Positions 23,005 through 32,645 of a stretch of DNA of 64,000 bases are shown in pieces. The position numbers and the translations under genes are program-made. The DNA comes from an uncultured Bacteroidales bacterium (GTDB taxonomy: Bacteria; Bacteroidota; Bacteroidia; Bacteroidales; UBA932): contig CAMBRR010000002.1 in the NCBI GenBank assembly GCA_945870315.1, positions 32,909-96,908 of the forward strand, read 5' to 3'. Positions within the stretch are counted from its first letter, which is position 1; each line of letters opens with the position of its first letter. Below the pieces are notes generated by a model. The model searched no databases, was not told where the DNA came from, and was given only the letters and a program-made list of their open reading frames with translations.

Positions 23005-25143
23005 TTACCTATTGTCGGTGTCTTTCTGACACCTTACCGGGGCTGCGAACGCCCTGTTCAATTGTTTCATTGCAAATGTATTTCCATCTACTGTAAAATG
23101 GAACTCATATGGCTGATTCATAGTCGCACCACCTATCCTGTTAGTCCATCTAACGCCATATGATGTCACTCCGTTTACACCTGTCGATTCGGTTTTCCAA
23201 TAATAGTCTGTGCCGTTCGATGCAAGTTGCATATTGTTGGCATATCTTCCGCAGGCGATAAAGAAATTGCCATCAGCTCTGACACCGTACCTTCCCTTAT
23301 TGGTCGAATCAAATTGGCGGGAGGAATCATTTAGGACATCAGTATAAGAAATCTGATCTGCTACCCTCCATCCTTTCGGACAAGGGTCAAAAATTGTCTT
23401 CTTTCCAACAGCATCCGCTTTTGAAGAAACACAGCCCCAAAGGTCTCCGACTTCATCCGTCTGCCACTGCAGAATCGGAGTCCCTGTTTTATCTGATTCT
23501 TTGTAGATAATACCGACAGGATGAGCAATCGACTCCTCCACAGACAGTGGTCCTGGCACACCAGGTACACTGCCTTTGGTGTAGACTCCATAATACTCGC
23601 AAGGCTTTGCATCATTTGCATAGAAGATTGGCATCGGACGTCCCCAAACATAATAGTTGATGGTCCTGTATGCCACATCTACATTTCCGTCCGCTCTATT
23701 GTTCTTCGTCCAGATTTCAATGTTAGTTGTAGCCTGTCCTATGTCCATATTGGCAAGAGAATACTTTCCTACCGCCTGCAGGGTTGTTCCATCTGCCGCA
23801 ATGTTCCAGAATGTCCAGGACCACAGTATTTTATTGTCCTTAATCATCAGCAGGATAGGAGAACCTGCAATGGCATAGGAATTCTCAATGGTTACTTCTG
23901 CATTTTCAGATGTTTTGATTTTATATCCCGTAGGCTTGATATCATTCGATTTGTAATTGTAAACTGCACAAGTATAAGTATTACTTCCTGTACCGTTCCC
24001 ATTTTCTCCAGCTACTCCCACCTTAGCCCACTCGAAGGATGCGCCCCGAGGGTCCACGACTTTTCTGAAGTCTCCCCTAGCCTTTGTACTTATGGTCACA
24101 GATCCCGGATATTCATCTTTCGGAGTGTAAGTAGCATTTGTAATCGTCAACCCGTTTTTGCATTGGATGATATATGTATTGGCATCTCCATATGCATAAC
24201 CAAGGCAGGAATATCCCCTCGTTTCAACGGATTCAAACCACTGTGAGGCATCGTTGTCATTCAGGGTAAGGTCCTTGAGTACAATCTCATTGATACATCC
24301 GCCCTTAAGGTTGACATTGGAGAATTTGAGTGGAAGAGTTACAGATGTAGCTGTAGCGTCCTCATACAGATTCAAGGCCAGCCATACTTCAGAGCCTGCA
24401 AAATCAGCTGGAAAACTTGAGAACCAGAATGTCTGGGAACCATCTGACAATGGTTTAGGAGAGGAGACATTGAGTTGCACCCAAGGCTTAGCGTTTTTCG
24501 TAGGTTCCAGAGAGGATGTTGACCAGTCGAATTTGAATTCTCCTGAAAGCGGTTTAGGAGAGGCGCTCTTATCTACAAGGCAGAGAGAAACGACCTTATA
24601 TGAGGCCAGTGCGGAAGAACTCACATCCACTTTGAAATATGCCAAAGGATGCTCGAGAGAAAAATCAACCTGTCCGTCAGAAACGGTACCCACAGCATAG
24701 GCAAATCCATTCGAAAACATTCCAGCACTTTCCCCTAAAATGCTCTGTATCTGCTCCGGAGCAAGTTCTGAAGTCATTATCCCACCTTCAACGGAAGCCG
24801 CATCTTTGTAAGGATAATAAATATTGACAGACTCTCCTTCAGAAACCAATGCCGGAGCCTCGAACACTCCGCTCTCAGCTTCAGTAATCTCTGCCTTTGA
24901 ATTCTGTGTTTTAGATGCAAATATTCCAAGCGCATCTTCCGCAGACCAGTTGAACTTATAGAAATTATTCTCCTGGTCCTTGTCAGAAACGGTTATTTTA
25001 GTCATTGGATTATGGCTAACTAGGCGCAAAGTACTGTAATCCAACTCCCCTACGGCCCCATTGTCTGCAATTTCCTCATTGATACAAGAAACTATAGAGA
25101 CAGCAAAGGCGACTACCAAAGTTATATCCAGTAATTTTTTCAT
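23005..25143 (-). CDS. Fimbrillin-like lipoprotein with C-terminal FISUMP (Fibrobacter paralogous) domain; candidate surface glycan-binding protein
   Basis: 712 aa; SCINEE lipobox; fimbrillin-type N-half; 'KTIFDPCPKGWRVADQISY' and terminal 'APVRCQKDTDNR'. Confidence 0.7.
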   Translation of the reverse strand: MKKLLDITLVVAFAVSIVSCINEEIADNGAVGELDYSTLRLVSHNPMTKITVSDKDQENNFYKFNWSAEDALGIFASKTQNSKAEITEAESGVFEAPALVSEGESVNIYYPYKDAASVEGGIMTSELAPEQIQSILGESAGMFSNGFAYAVGTVSDGQVDFSLEHPLAYFKVDVSSSALASYKVVSLCLVDKSASPKPLSGEFKFDWSTSSLEPTKNAKPWVQLNVSSPKPLSDGSQTFWFSSFPADFAGSEVWLALNLYEDATATSVTLPLKFSNVNLKGGCINEIVLKDLTLNDNDASQWFESVETRGYSCLGYAYGDANTYIIQCKNGLTITNATYTPKDEYPGSVTISTKARGDFRKVVDPRGASFEWAKVGVAGENGNGTGSNTYTCAVYNYKSNDIKPTGYKIKTSENAEVTIENSYAIAGSPILLMIKDNKILWSWTFWNIAADGTTLQAVGKYSLANMDIGQATTNIEIWTKNNRADGNVDVAYRTINYYVWGRPMPIFYANDAKPCEYYGVYTKGSVPGVPGPLSVEESIAHPVGIIYKESDKTGTPILQWQTDEVGDLWGCVSSKADAVGKKTIFDPCPKGWRVADQISYTDVLNDSSRQFDSTNKGRYGVRADGNFFIACGRYANNMQLASNGTDYYWKTESTGVNGVTSYGVRWTNRIGGATMNQPYEFHFTVDGNTFAMKQLNRAFAAPVRCQKDTDNR

Positions 25144-25295
25144 AATATATTCATTTCATCATTTTCAACATCGAATTGACTTAAAAATGACCTTTGGATA
25201 GAATTTCCATAAGCACCTCCTGCTGAGGCAGAAAGGACAGCCGAATCTATTTCGAAATTCAGTGTATGAATTTCAGGAGTCATATAAGTGCTCAT
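25140..25295 (-). CDS. Unannotated 51-aa small protein with GG-type leader: MSTYMTPEIHTLNFEIDSAVLSASAGGAYGNSIQRSFLSQFDVENDEMNIL
   Basis: Read from the reverse complement; stop TGA overlaps the downstream FISUMP start (ATGA), AT-rich upstream region, 53 bp after the preceding gene's stop. Confidence 0.65.
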   Translation of the reverse strand: MSTYMTPEIHTLNFEIDSAVLSASAGGAYGNSIQRSFLSQFDVENDEMNIL

Positions 25296-25348
25296 ATAGT
25301 ATTTTTATCTGAATTGTTTATTCTATGCATTTTATTACACTCGGGACT

Positions 25349-27508
25349 TTACCTATTGTCGGTGTCAAGTACACAGCGGACTGGAGCGCTGACACTCTTG
25401 TTGTAGGTGGCGCGTCTCGGAGCTGCCTTGGAAGCTGAACTTCTGACATACAGAGCATTGCCCTGAGTATTTCCGGACACATTGGTCCATAACAAGCCGT
25501 GTGACGAAGTAGAAGCGGAACCATTCTCACCGCCTCCCATAGTTGCAAGACGTCCGTTTGTACTTGTCTTTCCATTTCCATAACCGCAGCAAACAAACTG
25601 AACACCGCCGATCTTTACTCCAGGATAACCTGCATTATCCACATACTCAATGGAATTGGCATCTGGATATTCTTCACCAATCCTAGTCGCCCAGATGGCA
25701 TCCGGAACCCTCCAGCCCTTAGGGCAAGGGTCGTAAATAGACTTGATACCCTCTTTTTCAAGATCACCCGAAGTACTACCCCAGAACTTGTTGTTAGGCT
25801 CAGAACACCAGTTTGCCTGGTCAGTTGCATCAACAGGACTGAGAATCAGTCCAACAGGATTTTCAAGAGACTGAGCAATTGTCAGAGGATCTGACAATAT
25901 AGCCATGCACTGCTCGCTTGTAACAGGATTCGAGCCATCGTGGCCACCTGTCAAAGTCCAATATGAAGTCCAGAACACAGGCATAGACCTTCCCCACTGA
26001 TAATAATTAGCTGTTCTGTAGATAACATCCGGATTGGTTCCCTTCTTGTTCGCAGTCCAAGTATCGTACTGGGTTGAAGAAATACCGATTTCCATAGGAG
26101 CCACCTTGTAGCCACATAGGTCATAAGCCTCAACCTTGGTTCCGTCAGCAGCGATATTCCAGAACGTCCAGGCCCAAAGAGTCTTGCCATCTTTCTTCAT
26201 CAGAAGGATAGGAGAACCAGCAAGAGCACTGACATTCTTCACTGTTACAGTATAATTTCCGTCATAGCTGAACTCATAGCCATCTGGACTAATTACAGAG
26301 TCATATCCGGCAGTTCTGCAGGTATATACAACTCCAGCGGCATTGGTCGCCCATTCGAAAGTAGCTCCGCGTGGATCCACTGCATTGTAGAAGTTTCCAC
26401 GGGCACGGATATCTATCTTAACTTCATCAGGGATGTCAGGATTAGGAGTATAGGTTGCACCAGTGTAGGTAGTTCCATTCTTGCACTGGATGAAATATGT
26501 ATTGGCATCACCGTAAGCGACTCCATTGCCTGCGAGGTAACGGGTTTCCGAAGCGACATACCAGTCACCTGCACCGTTCATCGAAGTATTGAGGCCAGAA
26601 AGGTCAATCTTTGTAGTCTGTCCGGCAACAAACTTGAGGTCTTTCTGTTTGGTAGGGATGGTAAGGCTGCTGCCGTCCTGGTTCTGGAGTTCAACGATAA
26701 CCCACAATTCCTTGCCTGTAAAATCTACTGGAAGAATGTTCAGATAGATATTCTGAACGGCTCCGGAGGTCAATGCAACAGGCTGGTCCACAGTTACTGA
26801 CACCCTATTGAGAGGCTCTCCAGTCTGTATGATTTCCAAAGTTTCAGGATTGAGGTTGAATCCTCCAGCCATAGGGGTGTTGTTATCATCATAAATCGAC
26901 ACCCTTGTAGGTGAATAACCTGTAAGTTCAGTCGTGGTAATGGAAACCTGGGCAAGAGCCGTAACCGGGTTGAGTTCAAACTTGAAAGTCTCGTCAACTC
27001 CAGGGATGGCTGTGCAATATGCCATTGCAAAGCAGTCTGCCGCCACATTCGGAGCAACTTGCTTCTGAGCATCATCAATACTCAAACCATAAATGATTCC
27101 CTTGTTATAGACAAGGTCCTTACTGTAAGGAGAATAGATCATAAATTTATTCTCTCCCTGGACCAGGTCCATCGGCTGCGAGTTGAATACTCCGATATTT
27201 TTCCCATCGTAAGGAGAAGGAGTATAGTTATTGATGTTCTCTCCCGTTTCCTCATCAATGACAGGAGCGATATTTTCAACATATCCTTCGATGTAGGCTG
27301 GTTTGTTGATGATTTTAACATCCTCCATAGCAGAATAGACTCCAATTGCGGAATTTGTCTTCCAGGTGAAGCCTTCAGTTGCTACCGTACCTTCAAATTT
27401 GTAGGTGGTGTTTGGTTCAGGAACCGGATAAACAGGTCCTTTTGGCTCTTTTTGGCAAGAAACTGCTAATGCAGCCATTGCACAGAATAACAAAACTGAT
27501 TTTTTCAT
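25349..27508 (-). CDS. Fimbrillin-like lipoprotein with C-terminal FISUMP domain (paralog of 23005-25143)
   Basis: 719 aa; AVSCQKE lipobox; 'KSIYDPCPKGWRVPDAIWATR', 'APVRCVLDTDNR'; shared central 'GVAYGDANTYFIQCKNGTTYTGATYTP' with paralog. Confidence 0.72.
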   Translation of the reverse strand: MKKSVLLFCAMAALAVSCQKEPKGPVYPVPEPNTTYKFEGTVATEGFTWKTNSAIGVYSAMEDVKIINKPAYIEGYVENIAPVIDEETGENINNYTPSPYDGKNIGVFNSQPMDLVQGENKFMIYSPYSKDLVYNKGIIYGLSIDDAQKQVAPNVAADCFAMAYCTAIPGVDETFKFELNPVTALAQVSITTTELTGYSPTRVSIYDDNNTPMAGGFNLNPETLEIIQTGEPLNRVSVTVDQPVALTSGAVQNIYLNILPVDFTGKELWVIVELQNQDGSSLTIPTKQKDLKFVAGQTTKIDLSGLNTSMNGAGDWYVASETRYLAGNGVAYGDANTYFIQCKNGTTYTGATYTPNPDIPDEVKIDIRARGNFYNAVDPRGATFEWATNAAGVVYTCRTAGYDSVISPDGYEFSYDGNYTVTVKNVSALAGSPILLMKKDGKTLWAWTFWNIAADGTKVEAYDLCGYKVAPMEIGISSTQYDTWTANKKGTNPDVIYRTANYYQWGRSMPVFWTSYWTLTGGHDGSNPVTSEQCMAILSDPLTIAQSLENPVGLILSPVDATDQANWCSEPNNKFWGSTSGDLEKEGIKSIYDPCPKGWRVPDAIWATRIGEEYPDANSIEYVDNAGYPGVKIGGVQFVCCGYGNGKTSTNGRLATMGGGENGSASTSSHGLLWTNVSGNTQGNALYVRSSASKAAPRRATYNKSVSAPVRCVLDTDNR

Positions 27509-27535: not shown

Positions 27536-29452
27536 TTATTCCGATACGACAGCTCCCCATCCGGCATTCTGTGAAAGCTTATGGTTTACGCCTATCTGTT
27601 CTTCCGAAATCGGAAGCCATATCTTGTAATTTGTCTTTGTATTGTCAAAATATACATCAGTATTCCAATTGCGTCTCAACACAGGAATGCTCATATGAAG
27701 GTAACCGTCACTTTGAAGTTTCAAGAATTTATCATCCACTTCTCCACGTTTTTCGACCACCATATCCTCGTCCAGGGAAGCAATCTTTTCATTTATGATA
27801 TTGTATCTTATGAGATCGAATTTACGGGAACACTCGAAAATGAGTTCTCGCTCGCGGCTTTCAAGAAGTTCATCGATAAAATCATCGCGATGGTAGCTCG
27901 CCTTGATTTCATTGAAGAGAACAGGATCCTTTACGGAACGAGAAAGCACGACATCCAGCTGACTGCGCGCACCAGACTCATCTCCCGTCCAGTAAAGAGC
28001 CTCTGCATACATAAGGTAAACGTCAGCAAGTCTCATAAGAGGAATTGACACAGCGTGCTGCTGATAGTTGTGCTGAACCTCCGAGAAATTACAGAGACGA
28101 TACTTGCCCGGACATAACTGAATGCCAGAAATCGGCAGATAGGTCTGCGTCTCAAGATTATCATAAAGGGGATGGATGATTTCCTTGGTTTCAGTCTGAG
28201 GTTCACCCGTTACCGGATCAAGAACAGGATTTCCTGAATTATCGACAATAGGGACAGAAGCTATCACAGTCTGCTGTTTGTTAGGCTTCCAGTAGGTATA
28301 TCCGTCCACCGTCACAGCCTCTTTTCCATCAGAAAGACGGCCGGTGAAGTTATGATCCCTGCGAGGATCTTTCGGATGGTACATATAGAAGGCCCTCGGA
28401 GTAGGCACGTGACGACCTCCATAGACATTCGGAGAATCCATTCCATTGTTGACCGGAGTTGGCAGATAGTATGAGTTAGGCCAATAACCCTCGGTACCAG
28501 AAAGAGGCTGCTCCGCAAGCAAGAGACATTCCTCATACTGTTCTGACTTTGTGGTTTCCCGGAACAGGTTTGTATAATCAGGAATGAGCCTGTACGGAGA
28601 ATTCATTATGACATCTTCGCATGCTGCCTTAGATTTCTCCCACAGTTCCTGTTCCATAATCTTTCCGCTTGTTCCCGTCTTTTCCACAAAAGAGAAATCG
28701 TTCAGAGGCTGCTCAGCGACAAGGTCGGCGCCTACCTTATTGTGCCCACAGGCTGCTAGATAATTGCAGATTCTTGCAATGTAGGCCGCAGCAGTGTACT
28801 TATTGGCTGAAGATGTCTGAAGTATGCCCGTGGTCTCAAGATTTTGATAGGCATAATCCAGGTCATCGAGGATGAACGAATACACTTGCTCAAGAGAAGA
28901 CCGTGGTTCGTCTCCTGCAGAATCATATTCAGTAACAATCGGGACTCCACCGAAAAGCCAGGCAAGATGATAGTAGAAGAAAGCCCTGCAAAACCTCGCC
29001 TCAGCTTTGTACTGCACCTTGGTCTCATCGCTCATTTGAGGAAAATCCACATAGTGAAGAATGGTATTGCACCTGTTTATGCCGGTGTACATCACCTTCC
29101 ATACATCTCTCACACAACGCGTACTTTCTATATAGTTAGCCCAGTACATTTCCAGGCCTTCGTCTGATGACGAGGTCGCAGCGACGATGTCATCGGAAGG
29201 TCCGTTCATCACATACAGGAGTCCCTGTCCGTAACTTCCTCTCTGGACATAGGATGCACCAGGAATCTTATGTCCATTGATTACTTCATAACAGGAAATC
29301 AGTGCAGAACGCATATCGCTCTCCGTTTTATAGAAATTCTCAGGAGAAGTCTGGGAATATGGATTCTGCTCAAGGAAAGGAGCATTCTCACATGAGACCG
29401 CCATCATTGCACAGAGTATGTAAAGAAAAATCAATCGTTTCATAACCACCAC
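27536..29452 (-). CDS. SusD/RagB family nutrient-binding outer membrane lipoprotein
   Basis: 638 aa; 'FLEQNPYSQTSPENFYKTESDMRSALISCYE', 'EARFCRAFFYYHLAWLFGGVPIV', 'LMRLADVYLMYAEALY'; immediately follows SusC. Confidence 0.95.
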   Translation of the reverse strand: MVVMKRLIFLYILCAMMAVSCENAPFLEQNPYSQTSPENFYKTESDMRSALISCYEVINGHKIPGASYVQRGSYGQGLLYVMNGPSDDIVAATSSSDEGLEMYWANYIESTRCVRDVWKVMYTGINRCNTILHYVDFPQMSDETKVQYKAEARFCRAFFYYHLAWLFGGVPIVTEYDSAGDEPRSSLEQVYSFILDDLDYAYQNLETTGILQTSSANKYTAAAYIARICNYLAACGHNKVGADLVAEQPLNDFSFVEKTGTSGKIMEQELWEKSKAACEDVIMNSPYRLIPDYTNLFRETTKSEQYEECLLLAEQPLSGTEGYWPNSYYLPTPVNNGMDSPNVYGGRHVPTPRAFYMYHPKDPRRDHNFTGRLSDGKEAVTVDGYTYWKPNKQQTVIASVPIVDNSGNPVLDPVTGEPQTETKEIIHPLYDNLETQTYLPISGIQLCPGKYRLCNFSEVQHNYQQHAVSIPLMRLADVYLMYAEALYWTGDESGARSQLDVVLSRSVKDPVLFNEIKASYHRDDFIDELLESRERELIFECSRKFDLIRYNIINEKIASLDEDMVVEKRGEVDDKFLKLQSDGYLHMSIPVLRRNWNTDVYFDNTKTNYKIWLPISEEQIGVNHKLSQNAGWGAVVSE

Positions 29453-29453
29453 T

Positions 29454-32400
29454 TTAGAAAGACATATTTATACCGAAAGTAAATGTTCTGGCCTTCGGAT
29501 AGGACATCCTGTCGAAGCCGGTGAACAATGGATTTGAAGTACTGACATCTGGATCCATTCCGCTGTATTTGGTAATGACAAAGAGATTCTCTCCATTGAG
29601 ATACAGTTTGATGGAACTTATCCTGGCCTTCCTGAGCTTCGGAGTATCAAAGACATAGCCGAATGAGAAATTCTTCATCCTCAGGTAAGACCCATCCTCA
29701 ACATAATAGGATGACACCCAGGTATTGGTCTGATTGAGAAGGCGGGAATATGTATTTGTCGGATTCTCAGGCGTCCATCTGTTATACCAGGAGTCTTTCG
29801 TGAGGTTGTTGAATTGGGTGCCGCCGGAGAGGCCGGACTCTGACCTCATCTTGAATTCGTTCATAATATCCCGTCCAACCACCGACTCGAAGAAGAAGGA
29901 CAACTCGAATCCTTTGAAATTGAATGTATTGCCAAATCCCAATGTAAAATCCGGATTCGAATCACTGATTACTTGTCTATCCGCAGACGTGATGTCATTG
30001 TTTCCGTCAAGGTCCTTGTACTTGCGGTCTCCTGGCTGGACTGCTACAGAATTGATGGTGGTAACTCCCTCCTTGAGAGTATACTTGAAAGAATCATAGT
30101 TATCTGAAGTCACAATCTCCGATGGAGTATCAAAGACATTGCCCCATTTGTCCGTTGCAATGAAATCATCCAGCTGATAGTTTCCGTCCCATACATATCC
30201 ATATCCAACACCGATAGGCTGCCCGACCATTATTCTTGATATGTCATTGGCCATCACGCCGTGGGCGATATTGACGCTTGTGAATGGAGTACCTCCGATG
30301 TCCATAACTTTGTTTCTGGACAAATCGAAAGTGATGTTCGTGGACCACTGGAAATTCTTCCTGTCGATATTGTGAGTATTGAGACTTATTTCAATACCCT
30401 TGTTGGTCACCCTTCCAAGATTCTGCCACTGCTGGGTAAATCCGGACTGGGCAGAAATTGTTGCAAGGTAAAGCATATCCCTAGTATCCTTGAAATACAC
30501 GTCGGCTGACAAATCTATTCTATTGTGGAAGAAACTTAGGTCCAGACCAAGGTCATACTGCCAGGTAGTCTCCCATTTGAGTTTCCTGTTTGCGGAACTC
30601 GACATTGCCATACCCATTACCTCTGTTCCATTGATTGCATAATAATTGGTGGACATTAAGGCCATTGGGGCATAATTTGCAATCCTGTCATTCCCTGAAG
30701 AACCTGCACTTGCCCTTATTTTGAACTGATCCATCCATAAGACATTCTCCATAAAAGGTTCCTCGGACAACCTCCATGCAATTGAGACAGAAGGGAAATA
30801 TGCCCAGCGGCTTCCGCTCATAAATTTGGATGAACCGTCAGCCCTCATATTGAATCCGATATAGTAACGCTGCGCATAATTGTAGTTTACCCTTCCGAAC
30901 ACGGACATTCTTGAACTAGTAGCATAATTCTCGTCAACTCTTTCCTGAACACCACCTTTGCCAATGTCGAAAACACCTGTTGATGCCTCTGAAAAGTCAT
31001 ATGCTCCATTGGTGATATTCTCACTATGATAGGCACTCAATTCCCCTCCGAGCATTGCATCGAAATTATGTACATCATTCCAAGTCTTGCGATAAGTCAG
31101 GGTTGCAGAAGCGTTGTAATTCCAAGTATCTACCTGCTTGATTCTAGCATAACCGTTCTTGGAATAGCCCCAGACAGTGTTTTTAGTATAGAACTCCATT
31201 CCTTTTGAATTGGAAGTCGCTCCGGAAGCCTGAGCCCTGAATACCAGATCCGGAATTATCTTCCACTCAACATAAGCATTGCCGGTAACCTTCGAATAAA
31301 CTGTTTTCTTATAAGTCTCACCTGTGACACAGTCAGTAAGAAGATAGCCGTTGGTATTTTCAGAAGTATCCGAATCTGTATAGAATTCAAGCGGTCTCTT
31401 GAGATAAATCAGCTGAATGAGTCCGCTGTAGCCAAGTTCTCCACCACCTGAAGAAACAGCACCGTTGGAAATGTTGCGCCCATAGTTGACACTTGCACCG
31501 ACCTTGACGCGACTTCCTATAGCGTGGTCAAATTTCAGTCTGCCCGTGTAACGAATAAAGTCATTGTTTCGAATCAGTCCCTGTTGGTTCAGATAGCCGA
31601 AACTTGCCACAAGCTGAGTTCTCTGGTTGGCTATGGCGTTAACAGAAATATTGTAGTTCTGAGTCACCGCTGTACGATACAGCTCCTTTTGCCAATCGTA
31701 ATACTTGTATTGGCTCGCATCCATCGGAGCATCATCCTTAATTCCATCTCCGTTCAAATCCACTCCATATCCTGTCCATCCATAGTCACGGCGGTTGAAC
31801 CTATAATCTACATATTCCTGTGCATCAAGCATTTCAATATATTTCGGAACATTGGATATTCCGACACTGGCATCGAAATTAACGATAGTCTTATCCGTGC
31901 CTGTGGCCCCGCTCTTGGTTGTGATGATTACGACTCCGTTTGCTCCCCTGGCTCCATAGATAGCAGTTGCAGTCGCGTCCTTCAGCACCTCGATCGACTC
32001 TATGTCGTTAGGATTTAGGAAAGCAAGTGGGTCGAAACTGCCTGTACCCGTTGAGGAAGTAGTTGCAACCTCCGAAGAAGAAACATCCATCTGCATTCCG
32101 TCAATTACAAAAAGCGGAGTCGTACCAGCATTTATGGAGTTATTGCCACGGATCTTGATATTGAAACCAGCTCCTGGCTCTCCCGACTGGGATGTAATGC
32201 TCAATCCTGCAACATGTCCCTGCAGGGCGTTCACCATACTGTTGCTTCCGGTTTTCACAAGGTCCTCGGACTTGACTGAACTGACGGAACTGGTAAGATC
32301 CCTTTTTGAAAGAGAGCCATATCCAATGACAACGGCATCTTCAATCACAAGTTTGTCCTCAGCCATCACCACATCCAATGAAGTCTGTTTGTCAATCAGA

Positions 32401-32645
32401 ATGCTCTGGGATACCATTCCGAAGAAAGTGAAATTCAACTTCTTTCCTGGAAGCTGCTTGATTGAGTATTTTCCGTCAATGTCAGTGACATCACCTATAT
32501 TGGTTCCGGAATAAGAGACACCTACGCCGATGAGAGGTTCACCGTTAGTATCAGTGACGGTTCCACTTACCATATTCTGGGCAAACATATCTGCACAAAG
32601 CAACGAGAAAAACACTGCTATGGCTATTTTCAAGACCTTCATCAT
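29454..32645 (-). CDS. SusC/RagA family TonB-dependent transporter
   Basis: 1063 aa; carboxypeptidase-like domain 'VSGTVTDTNGEPLIGVGVSYSGTNIGDVTDIDGKYSI', plug 'LFVIDGMQMD', 'ATAIYGARGANGVVIITTK'. Confidence 0.97.
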   Translation of the reverse strand: MMKVLKIAIAVFFSLLCADMFAQNMVSGTVTDTNGEPLIGVGVSYSGTNIGDVTDIDGKYSIKQLPGKKLNFTFFGMVSQSILIDKQTSLDVVMAEDKLVIEDAVVIGYGSLSKRDLTSSVSSVKSEDLVKTGSNSMVNALQGHVAGLSITSQSGEPGAGFNIKIRGNNSINAGTTPLFVIDGMQMDVSSSEVATTSSTGTGSFDPLAFLNPNDIESIEVLKDATATAIYGARGANGVVIITTKSGATGTDKTIVNFDASVGISNVPKYIEMLDAQEYVDYRFNRRDYGWTGYGVDLNGDGIKDDAPMDASQYKYYDWQKELYRTAVTQNYNISVNAIANQRTQLVASFGYLNQQGLIRNNDFIRYTGRLKFDHAIGSRVKVGASVNYGRNISNGAVSSGGGELGYSGLIQLIYLKRPLEFYTDSDTSENTNGYLLTDCVTGETYKKTVYSKVTGNAYVEWKIIPDLVFRAQASGATSNSKGMEFYTKNTVWGYSKNGYARIKQVDTWNYNASATLTYRKTWNDVHNFDAMLGGELSAYHSENITNGAYDFSEASTGVFDIGKGGVQERVDENYATSSRMSVFGRVNYNYAQRYYIGFNMRADGSSKFMSGSRWAYFPSVSIAWRLSEEPFMENVLWMDQFKIRASAGSSGNDRIANYAPMALMSTNYYAINGTEVMGMAMSSSANRKLKWETTWQYDLGLDLSFFHNRIDLSADVYFKDTRDMLYLATISAQSGFTQQWQNLGRVTNKGIEISLNTHNIDRKNFQWSTNITFDLSRNKVMDIGGTPFTSVNIAHGVMANDISRIMVGQPIGVGYGYVWDGNYQLDDFIATDKWGNVFDTPSEIVTSDNYDSFKYTLKEGVTTINSVAVQPGDRKYKDLDGNNDITSADRQVISDSNPDFTLGFGNTFNFKGFELSFFFESVVGRDIMNEFKMRSESGLSGGTQFNNLTKDSWYNRWTPENPTNTYSRLLNQTNTWVSSYYVEDGSYLRMKNFSFGYVFDTPKLRKARISSIKLYLNGENLFVITKYSGMDPDVSTSNPLFTGFDRMSYPKARTFTFGINMSF

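Follow-up and report, generated by a model that had tools for sequence, protein, structure and literature searches.

Two groups of phosphorylated peptides are the closest described counterparts of the gene reported here. Precursors of BsfA-type lasso peptides carry Tyr-17, Pro-14, a hydrophobic residue at -12, Ile or Val at -2 and a phosphorylated Ser3 (PMC10368454). The LPP precursors have a YxxPxV leader and a phosphorylated Ser3, with a leader consensus of YxxPxVLxHQxIxFETxxS (PMC13381572). In the sources covered here, two curated libraries and a limited selection of open-access literature, this RRE/HprK-guided LPP form is reported only for Bacillota. We analysed a stretch of 64,000 nucleotides from an uncultured Bacteroidales bacterium ('the window'), in which a short open reading frame lies between two lipoprotein genes.

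The peptide gene and its operon

The minus-strand ORF at 25140..25295 encodes a candidate precursor peptide of 51 amino acids (MSTYMTPEIHTLNFEIDSAVLSASAGGAYGNSIQRSFLSQFDVENDEMNIL), assigned as such by the reading frame and by family membership. A preliminary description of this DNA had given exactly this translation, and its account of the surroundings also holds: the gap of 205 bp from 25143 to 25349 is filled by the ORF, whose stop codon TGA shares bases with the start codon of the following lipoprotein gene in the sequence ATGA. The minus-strand operon comprises, in this order, genes for a SusC-like protein, a SusD-like protein, a lipoprotein, the peptide, a second lipoprotein, an unassigned protein and a GH31-like protein. 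The first is a SusC/RagA-type TonB-dependent receptor (29454..32645, TIGR04056), the second a SusD-like protein (27536..29452, PF07980 and PF14322).

The two lipoproteins, all of whose coding sequence is likewise on the minus strand, have 719 (25349..27508) and 712 residues (23005..25143), are 38% identical and share the C-terminal end APVRC..DTDNR. They flank the peptide in tandem, and the peptide precedes only the second of them, the 712-residue partner to which the ATGA couples it translationally and in which a lipobox (SIVSC) and an MTK..W motif were recognized by inspection. Both had been described as FISUMP proteins. For the upstream one this survives as a weak match (15.8 bits, where the cut-off is 41.65); the partner does not match the model. 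A search of the genome collection with the window lipoprotein found no relative.

The peptide itself has no signal peptide. Its proposed leader comprises residues 1-21 (MSTYMTPEIHTLNFEIDSAVL; 25233..25295, minus strand), with a putative boundary placed by column conservation, and contains the YxxPxI motif as YMTPEI at residues 4-9 (numbering after PMC10368454 and PMC13381572). The proposed core, residues 22-51, forms a variable acidic tail and, together with the stop codon, extends over 25140..25232 on the same strand. The window copy belongs to a subclass with a leader longer by one residue, and Ser24 (codon 25224..25226, minus strand) may be the equivalent of Ser3 in LPP and phospho-lasso precursors, the residue phosphorylated by HprK.

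That the ORF is a real gene, beyond chance, was confirmed by profile searches. When a profile was built from six further members of the long-leader type, leaving out the window copy, and run on the 6,425 small ORFs from the host genome, it recovered this copy at E = 1.7e-5, cleanly separated from the background. With the whole-family profile, again built without it, it ranked eighth of these 6,425 ORFs (E 0.055), and the top eight were all family members. The preliminary description had proposed a dN/dS comparison across homologues. It was carried out on close pairs of other family members, since the searches yielded no orthologue close to the window copy, and gave values mostly between 0.1 and 0.7; of the first thirty pairs, one was an exception. 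Judged by these ratios, the family is under purifying selection.

An unnamed family of small proteins

Searches with the 51-residue sequence alone were too weak, and only genome G021 proved informative. The window peptide matched neither phage sequences nor PADLOC. The first clue to a family was a weak match in one congener, which revealed the block YISPEMEIVNIEVEQAILSAS; a second copy in the host genome was then found by a DNA pattern. With a stricter DNA pattern, 11 matches were obtained in 200 congeners, whereas the reversed control had none. When the pattern was applied to the whole order, most matches were unrelated, and this approach was dropped. Profile searches found matches in 157 of the 200 congeners at E values up to 0.5, the better ones almost all inside open frames of 36-93 amino acids, and 96 distinct family members were extracted. 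A scan of 57 members against Pfam-A and NCBIfam revealed no family model, only scattered single matches at chance level.

The host genome has at least 11 members, on contigs C1, C2 (the window), C4, C9, C10, C12, C22, C23 (a cut copy), C29, C34 and C51. A wider small-protein family with an 'x-T/S-PE-I' start, suspected in the preliminary description, therefore does exist: an unnamed family of gut Bacteroidales whose genes are mostly placed just 5' of surface-lipoprotein genes. Related loci with named records come from Bacteroidales of ruminant and other animal guts. At four loci (L161, L170, L174 and L191) at least two different family peptides lie close together. A few members are present in other Bacteroidales families, located beside different genes. 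In one of them (genomes G309 and G493; loci L205, L206, L209, L210 and L212-L214) the peptides lie directly downstream of large proteins with VNGKK.I.K-like tails and not upstream of lipoproteins.

The members have in common the block YxSPE(V/I)..EGV(I/L)CxS and, behind it, a short acidic tail. Pro at Y+3 is present in all 101 members with [YF]xxP, Cys or Ala at Y+17 in 95, Ser at Y+19 in 95 and Val or Ile at Y+15 in 87 of these 101. Conservation extends from the Tyr to the Ser 19 residues on, with none beyond. The tails vary in sequence and length, contain 432 Asp or Glu against 48 Lys or Arg residues, and have an aromatic residue among the last six positions in 84 of 101 cases. In the subclass of the window copy the Ser is at Y+20; the window copy has no Cys at the expected site, and its conserved stretch stops at the Ser just before a GG pair. 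By spacing and residues, the block looks like the leaders that are read by RRE (PqqD-like) domains.

This GG pair had suggested a GG-type leader, cut off and exported by an ABC transporter with a C39 peptidase. The window copy has the sequence AGG/A at residues 25-28, and RiPP clusters of other kinds in Bacteroidales often have GG leaders together with PCAT (PMC10352776). Within the family, however, GG near position 26 occurs in only seven of 102 members, and among ten full-length host copies tabulated only in the window copy. In the 62% of the genome covered, a regular-expression motif, itself a weak tool, detected no ABC exporter of the C39 type. We rejected the GG/C39 leader, as GG is not conserved, and regard this route as very improbable; the block fits RRE-read leaders instead. 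The notion of a leader followed by a polar cargo was right in spirit, with the boundary at GG being the unsupported part.

Coupling to a surface lipoprotein, in contrast, turned out to hold for most members. Among the 86 members with enough downstream sequence, 76 have a lipoprotein gene directly 3', compared with 59 of 1,475 control ORFs from the same loci (Fisher 6e-80). It usually starts less than 30 nt from the peptide gene (median spacing about 13 nt). A lipoprotein with the TK..W..GD pattern follows in 63 cases against 17 for the control ORFs. Some of the downstream genes encode FISUMP, BspA-type LRR, Ig-like or lectin-like domains. The lipoproteins downstream of the peptides are usually fimbrillin-like, a term based here on the lipobox, the TK..W..GD pattern, one Mfa_like_1 match and four weak Mfa1 matches. 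A lipoprotein profile compared with the PDB gave two borderline matches to nanobodies, which were disregarded. Most lipoproteins of the host genome with the TK..W..GD pattern have no peptide.

Enzyme genes and the proposed pathway

The host genome contains a gene for an RRE on contig C3 (PF05402, 56.7 bits), for an HprK-like kinase on C11 (E 3e-115 with a profile of the RRE-linked kinases of the genus) with an MsbA-like ABC exporter gene directly downstream, and for an archaeal-type (Ser/His/Asp) signal peptidase on C17 (E 9e-49), in which the SxMxP, HR and GD motifs are kept. Enzymes and substrates are thus scattered. On C3 (81-2409) the RRE gene is followed by genes for a YhhN-family and a further membrane protein, not by other pathway genes. 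Of 200 congeners, 173 have an RRE, mostly in single copy; by sequence, the RRE had no match in the PDB. The NTP-transferase (PF14907) scores above the cut-off in 119 of the 200 congeners and was not found in the host genome.

In three other genomes the peptide and pathway genes lie together. In G021, peptide and lipoprotein adjoin genes for a TPR regulator, an HprK-like kinase, an S24/signal peptidase, a PqqD-type RRE, an NTP-transferase and an ABC exporter, which is the LPP gene set (PMC13381572). In G149 (contig C33, 5030-8269), peptide, RRE, kinase, signal peptidase and ABC exporter form a compact operon in one direction, the peptide gene being located 79 bp before the RRE gene. The G149 peptide has 34 residues, among them FFTPEVEV, and the RRE is divergent; this operon offers a ready test system. 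In G213 (contig C107, 2-2614), a peptide with YETV, a lipoprotein, an RRE and an NTP-transferase are encoded in one direction. Peptides near RRE genes number three where 0.5 are expected (p 0.02), a weak enrichment. Among 80 high-quality congeners, the RRE is present in all 28 with a strong peptide match and absent from nine of the 52 others (p 0.016, a value that takes no account of kinship). Some incomplete genomes (e.g. G007, G106 and G117) contain peptides with no RRE detected.

In LppB, the kink at the leader Pro is held in place by Asn33, and the leader Tyr forms a bond with Asp70. Each of these residues is kept in 15 of 16 RREs that were aligned or listed. The RRE that has no Asn, in G213, adjoins the only peptide without Pro (YETV), and the one that has no Asp, in G149, adjoins the only peptide with Phe for Tyr. 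The chance that both odd peptides fall among the three RRE-adjacent ones is 6e-4, for two cases picked after the fact.

We consider it probable that the window peptide is a precursor in an LPP-like RiPP pathway whose substrates are dispersed and each have a surface lipoprotein as partner. From motif and gene content we infer the following steps. The peptide would have its leader at the N-terminus, followed by a short acidic core. A stand-alone RRE (PqqD-like), encoded elsewhere in the genome, would bind the leader Y-x-x-P-x-(I/V/L) as an extra beta-strand and hand the peptide to the HprK-like kinase for phosphorylation of the conserved Ser. It would also present it to the archaeal-type signal peptidase for a cut next to the conserved (C/A/S)xS, and the MsbA-like exporter would carry the product out. 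A single scattered enzyme set would serve at least 11 precursors, and each of these would be produced along with a surface lipoprotein of its own. The lipoprotein from the same message may hold or display the mature peptide, a role suggested by gene coupling alone. Counter to the LPP-like reading are the scattered enzyme genes of the host with its missing NTP-transferase, the absence of the LPP residues HQ and FET from the family, the longer leader and missing Cys of the window copy, the incomplete genomes with peptides but no RRE detected, the weak enrichment of peptides near RRE genes, the small number of cases behind the matched changes in peptides and RREs, and the different partner genes of the peptides in other families.

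The tight coupling to lipoprotein genes, with its short spacing and the ATGA overlap in the window, and the missing signal peptide would also suit a small cytoplasmic protein that assists the lipoprotein as partner or chaperone, such as a factor for secretion or assembly, and is unconnected to an RRE pathway. We think this unlikely: only a leader-like block that ends at one Ser is conserved, whereas the tail, the part expected to touch a specific partner, differs between members in both length and sequence. In addition, many fimbrillin-like lipoproteins of the host genome do without such a peptide, and a chaperone leaves the RRE/kinase/peptidase operon of G149 and the matched RRE changes unexplained. 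The overlapping or nearly overlapping stop and start codons could also mark a regulatory upstream ORF, whose translation controls the lipoprotein gene and whose product is not used. This is less likely still, since Tyr, Pro, the hydrophobic pattern and Ser are conserved as protein in more than 100 diverse copies, dN/dS is below 1 in almost all close pairs, and the G149 copy precedes an RRE gene, not a lipoprotein gene.

If the LPP-like reading is true, peptide modification guided by RRE and HprK extends to the dominant gut Bacteroidales, a large unannotated small-protein family gains a testable role, and a peptide-modification pathway is tied to the surface lipoproteins with which gut Bacteroidales adhere and handle glycans. 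More speculatively, and with rather less confidence, there may be a genome-wide surface-peptide system of Bacteroidales, in which one scattered RRE/kinase/peptidase/exporter set processes a dozen or more different phosphopeptides, and the gene of each forms an exchangeable two-gene surface cassette with that of the lipoprotein by which the peptide is received or displayed. For annotation, small ORFs with Y..P...(C/A/S)xS just 5' of such lipoprotein genes should be regarded as genes.

Comparison with known systems

In marine cyanobacteria, one set of modifying enzymes acts on the many prochlorosin precursors, which are encoded away from these enzymes. Prochlorosins differ from the window family in their lanthipeptide chemistry, in having no RRE/HprK and in being unpaired with surface lipoproteins. 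The GG/PCAT peptides of Bacteroidales (PMC10352776) are alike in being small leader-core peptides from the same bacterial order; theirs is a GG leader with a C39 exporter, neither of which is a feature of the window family.

Phosphorylated lasso precursors of the BsfA and paeninodin type (PMC10368454) are closer. The family matches their spacing of Tyr-17, Pro-14, hydrophobic-12, Ile/Val-2 and Ser3, the lasso leader pattern YxxPxL (Tyr-17, Pro-14, Leu-12) being represented by YMTPEI in the window copy, and the lasso systems have an RRE and an HprK-like kinase, as does the host genome. However, core position +1 is mostly Cys or Ala here and Gly there. Inspection of family members revealed no fixed Asp or Glu at core position 8 and no fixed position for a ring-forming one at core 7-9, and no macrolactam cyclase or B2 peptidase was seen by eye in the RRE loci examined.

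The LPP systems of Bacillota (PMC13381572) have the same discrete RRE, HprK-like kinase, archaeal-type signal peptidase and MsbA-like exporter. Their precursors are also short, with a conserved N-terminus, YxxPx(V/I), a Ser just past the leader and a variable C-terminus. The family differs in phylum, in precursors that are scattered in the genome and paired with surface-lipoprotein genes, in the position of the Ser (Y+19 or Y+20, against Y+18 in LPP), and in the absence of an HQ or FET motif and, in the host, of the NTP-transferase. A single cluster that includes the precursor is not seen in the host genome, is seen in G149 minus the NTP-transferase, and in part in G213. As the NTP-transferase and a single cluster are missing from the host and the leader consensus is matched only in part, we did not file the family as a member of the LPP or phosphorylated lasso groups. 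By gene content and leader pattern, its pathway may nevertheless work like one or the other.
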